Source: Natronospira bacteriovora
GTDB taxonomy: Bacteria; Pseudomonadota; Gammaproteobacteria; Natronospirales; Natronospiraceae
Direction of reading: 5' to 3'
NCBI RefSeq assembly: GCF_030848495.1
Contig: NZ_JAVDDT010000004.1
Location: 186,001 to 250,000, forward strand
DNA: 64,000 bases
In this document: positions 63,358 to 63,868 of the stretch, piece by piece
Position numbering within the stretch: position 1 is the first letter of the stretch
How the letters are laid out: each line of letters begins with the position of its first letter
Notes under the pieces: generated by a model
The model's input: the letters and a program-made list of their open reading frames with translations, nothing else
What the model was told of the DNA's origin: nothing
The model's database searches: none
Position numbers and translations under genes: made by a program

Positions 63358-63808
63358 ATCGTTGTCGTTGTCGTAATCGGGTCTTTCAATGCACGCATTC
63401 GGCCACGAAAAGCTCGATGTCTACCAGCTCTCGCTCCAATACGTGGCATGGGCATCAACGTATTGTCAGGGTGTTAACGGGCTTCATCGGCATGCAAGGG
63501 GCCAACTACTGCGTGCCAGCCAGTCAGTGCCGATGAACATTGCCGAGGGCAATGGGAAGGGCACCCAAAAGGATCGTCGGCGATTTTTCGAGATTGCACG
63601 TGGATCGGCGCTGGAGTGTGCCGCAATTCAGGACGTTCTGGTTGTTACAGATGCAATGGATGCGGCGCAGAGTGCGGAGGGCAAGGCGATGCTTGTGAGA
63701 ATCGTCTCGATGTTGACTCGTCTCGGTGCCAAGTCGTTGATGGCGAGAGAGGCGTCTGGTGAGTACGCTTTGGTCGACAACGACAACGACAACGACAACG
63801 ACAACGAA
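63358..63808. mobile_element. Arm-bounded element carrying an S23 gene, inserted between mshL and mshM
   Basis: Left arm ATCGTTGTCGTTGTCGTAAT (63358-63380), right arm with six AACGAC units (63773-63808), inverted with respect to each other and identical in unit to the arms of family (a). Inside is one four-helix-bundle gene. The arms lie in an operon gap that is normally a few bases. Mobility is inferred, not shown. Confidence 0.5.
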
Positions 63809-63868
63809 GTAACCCCCTCGACGGTCCGTCATCGGCTGCAGGCAGGTAGTGCTGAGTTGAAACCATGA
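63389..63868 (+). CDS. Four-helix-bundle (S23 / rRNA intervening-sequence) protein
   Basis: 159 aa. HEKLDVYQLSLQYVAW, QLLRASQSVPMNIAEGNGKG and RRRFFEIARGSALECAAIQD are the hallmarks of the S23/IVP four-helix-bundle family. The family fold ends near residue 127; the rest is read through the right arm as NDNDNDNDNDN and a short tail overlapping mshM by 4 bases. Function is unknown; relatives lie in 23S rRNA intervening sequences and at other dispersed sites. It has no relation to pili. Confidence 0.85.
   Translation: MHAFGHEKLDVYQLSLQYVAWASTYCQGVNGLHRHARGQLLRASQSVPMNIAEGNGKGTQKDRRRFFEIARGSALECAAIQDVLVVTDAMDAAQSAEGKAMLVRIVSMLTRLGAKSLMAREASGEYALVDNDNDNDNDNEVTPSTVRHRLQAGSAELKP

Follow-up and report, generated by a model that had tools for sequence, protein, structure and literature searches.

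Why should a gene of the S23 family lie inside the msh (type IV pilus) operon of Natronospira bacteriovora, and why should it be enclosed by the repeats that bound gene-less palindromes elsewhere in the same region? We examined this question in a stretch of 64,000 nucleotides of the draft genome, referred to here as the window. The last part of the window is the msh operon, cut off inside the operon, with the gene order mshL-S23-mshM.

The S23 gene between mshL and mshM

The features at this locus, with positions given in the window, are as follows.

61557..63314, forward strand: mshL-like secretin gene, the upstream neighbour of S23; relatives have the same gene pair without S23
63358..63379, forward strand: left arm, ATCGTT GTCGTT GTCGTA ATCG (ATCGTTGTCGTTGTCGTAATCG)
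63389..63868, forward strand: S23 (four-helix-bundle) gene, PF05635, an ORF of 159 aa
63775..63808, reverse strand: right arm, inverted, CGAC(AACGAC)nAACGAA, which reads DNDNDNDNDNE in the S23 frame

The original prediction held that the (GTCGTT)n/(AACGAC)n arms of the window's gene-less elements also bracket an S23 gene, and that the C-terminus of its product is translated through one arm as Asn-Asp repeats. The first statement was confirmed by the arm coordinates and by the match of the ORF to PF05635 (23S_rRNA_IVP), which scored 65.2 bits against a curated cut-off of 33.8 and places the ORF in this family. The second also held, as the C-terminus is the translated right arm (..VDNDNDNDNDNE.., DNDNDNDNDNE). 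The stop codon overlaps the ATG of mshM (ATGA), and the PF05635 gene is the sole gene content of the element, which sits between protein genes and not in a helix of 23S rRNA.

The AlphaFold model of the S23 protein shows a helix bundle that is confident at residues ~5-122, followed by a low-confidence tail encoded by the arm. The closest structures were 2gsc (XCC0516), with a TM-score of about 0.9 by target length, and 2rld, followed by Avd (4dwl) and complexes of the reverse transcriptase of diversity-generating retroelements (DGRs). The crystal structures of S23 relatives contain five chains and, by analogy, the S23 protein is probably a pentameric four-helix bundle. No known nuclease, transposase or other catalytic domain was found in it.

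Hexamer palindromes in the genome and in relatives

With up to one mismatch, the two-hexamer sequence GTCGTTGTCGTT matched the window 29 times, against 0.16 matches expected and a largest value of 1 in shuffled sequences. Exact matches genome-wide numbered 122 on the forward and 102 on the reverse strand, compared to 1 and 0 for the reversed pattern used as a control. Gene-less hexamer palindromes lie at the following positions in the window.

25301..25493: palindrome with a nested heptamer (CGAGCNA) hairpin; the syntenic site in the relative G002 lacks a hexamer element
41173..41390: palindrome
42887..43054: palindrome
45611..45764: palindrome with ATCGTA/GTCGTA units, perhaps uncounted in the original prediction
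52579..52725: palindrome

A count of hexamer-arm pairs with and without S23 genes, suggested together with the original prediction, covered 1.06 Mb of the 3.0-Mb draft genome of this one strain (G000, 97% complete). It revealed 34 inverted pairs, along with 20 single arrays that include some short coding matches. One pair held an S23 gene and at least 33 were gene-less. The loops of the pairs measure 18-126 nt, except for the loop of 395 nt that holds the S23 gene. Short loops keep a GCNTTT...AAANGC edge around a variable interior, and longer loops contain a second hairpin of heptamer type. Extrapolating from the 34 pairs in 1.06 Mb, we estimate ~100 hexamer palindromes genome-wide. The proposal that gene-less forms may be non-coding derivatives of S23 elements is supported by the arms that the two forms share at dispersed sites. 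On contig C4, palindromes of different families are nested like the shells of an onion (170760-171150, 163590-164070 and 128300-128610), and it looks as if newer palindromes enter the loops of older ones.

The hexamer pattern GTCGTTGTCGTTGTCG occurs 220 times in N. bacteriovora, once in G001 and not at all in G002, the other two genomes of the genus, and it is absent from 36 further relatives. In the syntenic 200 kb of G002, hexamers were present at none of the ten hexamer sites. S23 is likewise missing between mshL and mshM in every relative in which the pair was read (G001-G006, G009 and G016). In these the junction measures 0 to about 130 bp, and protein identities of at most 81% make them too diverged for exact insertion junctions to be placed. 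Because the mshL-mshM junction is empty in the relatives and the hexamer is nearly absent from them, both the arrival of S23 at this site and the spread of the hexamer are, on this comparison of genome sequences, recent and specific to the N. bacteriovora lineage.

Arms and empty sites of S23 loci in other lineages

S23 genes were detected in 77 of 369 gammaproteobacterial genomes. For the analysis of arms, 71 gammaproteobacterial loci were joined by 78 usable ones from named genomes and further phyla (Bacteroidota, Verrucomicrobiota, Planctomycetota, Chloroflexota, Clostridia, Methanophagales, Cyanobacteria and others), giving 149 loci that represent the best-scoring family members and not a random sample. 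To score arms, we reverse-complemented the downstream flank and took its best local match to the upstream flank. The controls were 281 real ORFs (80-300 aa) taken from these loci, and pairings of the left flank of one locus with the right flank of another.

S23 genes elsewhere do not generally lack arms. A score of at least 14 was reached by 88 of the 149 S23 loci (59%) compared to 13 of the 281 control ORFs (4.6%; Fisher 1e-36) and 0.7% of cross-locus flanks, and a score of at least 12 by 110/149 and 26/281, respectively. About 26% of the loci (39/149) had no clear arms (score <12), and none of the 14 arm-less loci tested lay in a 23S rRNA context. Units differ from one locus to the next but agree between the paired arms of each locus. 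Read on the S23 strand, the upstream arm has more G than C at 79 of the 88 loci. The idea that hexamer arms mark S23 genes was right about the arrangement, which is general, and too narrow about the unit: the hexamer is limited to N. bacteriovora and the dominant period among S23 loci is 7 nt. Even within this genome the other three S23 genes have short tandem repeats of a different unit each at their ends. Two of them carry GAGTTCT/GAGTGCT and AGTGAAC/AGTTCCC, respectively, and the third has GAGGACT at one end next to a GAGGCGTTAG hairpin; clear inverted pairs are present at three of the four S23 genes. Like the hexamer, the first two of these repeats recur many times elsewhere in the part of the genome sampled.

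S23 type and arm unit are inherited together. A Mantel test across bacterial families related S23 identity to arm similarity (rho 0.22, 0/5000 permutations), and above 55% S23 identity the arms of 20% of pairs matched, compared to far fewer than 1% below 35%. One S23 subfamily sits after rpsI (S9), 18-84 nt before tRNA-Gln(CTG), at 14 loci in at least eight GTDB families; its units vary by genome, and arms of the same locus score a median of 12.5 compared to 6 for arms of different loci. In five genomes of one genus, the metK-ahcY junction is occupied by S23 elements of two types, and in some the right arm is the translated N-terminus of AhcY. An SAH riboswitch is present at the empty metK-ahcY site and was not found at the S23-occupied sites. 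A 1.5-Mb genome (G340) carries an S23-like gene that is divergent (34 bits), lacks tandem arms and is present in ~ten near-identical copies.

Occupied and empty versions of the same site were found in Nostocales plasmids. Plasmid C of Trichormus variabilis has an S23 element whose flanks are 97% identical to those of empty plasmids from Aulosira, Nostoc carneum, N. linckia, Microchaete and Tolypothrix; the insert starts with AAATCAGAATTCAGAAGTCAG, ends with CTCCTGAGTTCTTCTTT and has GTAAT on either side. At a second site, empty in other plasmids, Nostoc C052 pC052_D, ATCC 53789 pNsp_a and strain N6 have a related element (about 78% DNA identity), with an apparent 5-bp repeat, TTCTA, that lies inside arm-like sequence. 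Gene-less palindromes sharing the heptamers of the S23 elements occur at other Nostocales plasmid sites. For one of these, three plasmids have the precise empty site (AAGC|GATAAATACC; one plasmid differs by a single base). Another interrupts an S23 gene of the same arm family in Nostoc N6 pNPM1 (GAGAGCA|GATAAAGC), a gene that is intact in other plasmids. From these present and absent sites it follows, judging by sequence, that S23 elements move, or at least are gained and lost at sites. Sites of arm-bearing inserts are thus polymorphic, for S23 elements and for gene-less palindromes with matching arms alike, and together with the arms at 88 of 149 loci this supports the view of the original prediction that S23 genes belong to a dispersed, possibly mobile, palindromic family.

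A DDE-type IS or MITE would leave target-site duplications of constant length. Here, 5-bp repeats were seen at the two resolved S23 sites, one of them in arm-like sequence, and at neither of two gene-less sites. At the two resolved gene-less Nostocales sites there was no target duplication beyond 1 bp, and the 88 arm-bearing S23 loci showed no excess of flanking direct repeats.

Collectively, we consider the best explanation, with a probability of roughly 0.7, to be a mobile or once-mobile S23 element of ~450 bp, with a single gene and mirror-image ends of 6-8-nt repeats, of which the gene-less palindromes are non-autonomous relatives. The element mostly enters between co-transcribed genes, here mshL and mshM. 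Several observations count against the S23 explanation, namely the 39 loci without clear arms, the absence of systematic target duplication, the lack of a known nuclease or transposase domain in S23, arm mismatches without a G-U bias, and a gene-less 7-mer palindrome in G002, where no S23 match was found.

Possible routes of spread and a second palindrome class

We propose that the pentameric S23 ring would recognise the repeat unit once the arms snap into a hairpin, as single-stranded DNA or RNA, and that it would promote copying and insertion, in cis and in trans, with the help of replication or repair enzymes of the host. Once transcribed, the arms may form a long stem open to RNase III, by analogy with the intervening sequence (IVS) of Coxiella 23S rRNA, and an operon could then tolerate the insertion.

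The same analogy underlies an alternative that we regard as unlikely, namely an element acting at the RNA level like the rRNA IVS, kept for a stem that RNase III cuts out, and dispersed through rare events of recombination or capture and not by transposition. The Coxiella IVS has an S23 ORF, a 28-bp terminal stem that is excised by RNase III, and two or three tandem GACAGAT heptamers before the ATG, their number depending on the strain (PMC4990558). The IVSs with an S23p ORF in Coxiella and Leptospira share this anatomy with the mshL-mshM element, including terminal inverted repeats, a length of ~430-450 bp, tandem heptamers of varying number by the start codon and sense orientation in the host transcript (PMC4990558). 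S23 elements differ from them in lying between protein genes, at many sites per genome, with dispersed gene-less relatives and locus-specific units, and their stem is a predicted one that RNase III may cut. The arms of the mshL-mshM element pair in the predicted RNA (z -3.5), and pairing of arms at the RNA level is plausible from this model and from the IVS. The neighbours of S23 genes are also co-directional more often than those of control genes (72/113 loci compared to 146/317), which would be expected if insertion depends on transcription, if inserts that are excised are better tolerated, or if both apply. However, mismatches in the arms show no wobble bias on the sense strand (107 G-U compared to 139 A-C type), so no selection on RNA pairing is visible; precise empty sites exist for gene-less copies too; and the hexamer palindromes must have been copied recently, because the ~100 estimated copies are confined to one species.

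A somewhat less probable alternative makes S23 a passenger, with a Y1/HUH transposase (IS200/IS605, RAYT or PATE-like) moving the palindromes in trans as single-stranded hairpins. Target-specific insertion without duplication is typical of IS200/IS605. A hairpin mechanism of this type has been described (PMC6006769). The gene-less Nostocales palindromes resemble this, as all four copies have GATAA directly 3' of them, which was not seen for the S23 copies, and the two resolved sites are not duplicated. REPIN/RAYT systems also consist of many small palindromes, together with one or a few genes per genome that have this sequence on both sides. However, the RAYT is a Y1/HUH transposase and its arms are not 6-8-nt tandem arrays, whereas the gene in the mshL-mshM element belongs to PF05635. 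The only Y1 gene in N. bacteriovora is a RAYT elsewhere, bracketed by unrelated GTGGGAGCGGCTTTAGCCGC REPs, and Y1 genes are found in G001 and G002 too, where the hexamer is almost absent. A Y1/HUH enzyme also leaves unexplained the frequency of S23 inside arms and the way the arm unit follows S23 type. The RAYT, at C5:201536, is bracketed by GTGGGAGCGGCTTTAGCCGCGATTG palindromes, and similar REPs lie in the window at 19281-19454, 35643-35815 and 43632-44561.

Retro-mobility is improbable; here S23 would play the part of Avd, and a reverse transcriptase encoded elsewhere would act in trans. Avd is the nucleic-acid-binding partner of the reverse transcriptase in DGRs. The S23 protein shares its four-helix-bundle fold, and in the structure comparison Avd and the DGR RT-Avd complexes came directly after the S23 structures, yet no reverse transcriptase (RVT_1) match was found in the 97% complete genome in which the hexamer family has expanded. 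Lastly, the notion that no mobile element exists, and that slippage made tandem repeats near a small gene with inversion by chance, is barely credible: short tandem repeats do change in this way and the unit numbers of left and right arms are only weakly correlated (r 0.30), but inverted complementarity with differing units far above both controls and the empty sites contradict it.

The S23-element reading may also extend to repeats described in other contexts. The GGGAATC repeats of Xanthomonas and the GGGGA(C/T)T repeats of Nostoc are heptamer arrays like S23 arms, with 70-75 convergent inverted pairs in Xanthomonas, and were described as G-quadruplex repeats without a mobile-element association or a mention of S23 (PMC4692102). 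We found GGGAATC-type arms on both sides of an S23 gene of X. vasicola. The intergenic TAACTGA arrays of Beggiatoaceae were read as regulatory direct repeats, again with S23 unmentioned (PMC4679880), and an S23 locus in genome G026 has CAGTTAT-type arms, which are this repeat on the other strand. The origin of rRNA IVSs has been left open and called unclear since 1990 (PMC4990558). A search of open PMC papers, which takes in few subscription journals and no preprints, found none in which dispersed tandem-repeat arms are connected with S23 or GxxExxY genes. To our knowledge, no function has been assigned to S23 proteins, although their structures were solved about 20 years ago. Two published enigmas, the Xanthomonas GGGAATC repeats and the S23-coding IVS of Coxiella, fit the S23-element picture, which suggests that one widespread mobile family lies behind several puzzling repeat sequences. 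Placing S23 and the rRNA IVS in one palindrome family would give the protein a testable function, arm recognition. It would also explain species-specific heptamer expansions such as GGGAATC in Xanthomonas, and predict the locations of gene-bearing and empty sites.

Arms of 9-11 nt were also seen in Natronospira, after which we tried GxxExxY genes (PF13366, PDDEXK_3), and the guess held. All four GxxExxY genes of the three Natronospira genomes are bracketed by such arms, and 30 of the 32 loci of this class reach a score of 14, compared to 8.9% of cross-locus controls. Each arm is typically about three copies of an 8-11-nt unit (for example CACAGAGG, CGCCAAGG and CGCGAAATGCA). Gene-less palindromes with arms of this type are dispersed in N. 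bacteriovora, and the window has one.

48176..48512: palindrome without a gene, bounded by 11-nt arms (CGAAATGGACG) of the type found around the GxxExxY gene on contig C13

The parallel points to a more general design, overlooked by current genome annotation. We advance tentatively, at a little under even odds, the broader proposal that two widespread classes of palindromic mobile elements exist, each with one gene that encodes its dedicated protein: S23 in the class with 6-8-nt tandem-repeat arms and GxxExxY in that with 8-11-nt arms. Each class would spread itself and a large population of gene-less palindromes, the first class would include the rRNA IVS and several heptamer families, and a non-catalytic S23 pentameric ring, not a known transposase, would confer arm specificity. 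The ends of GxxExxY loci show a small excess of 5-mers, in a set with duplicate loci and AT-rich flanks. S23 and GxxExxY genes occur together in 16 genomes, which is above expectation (odds ratio 2.4, p 0.017).
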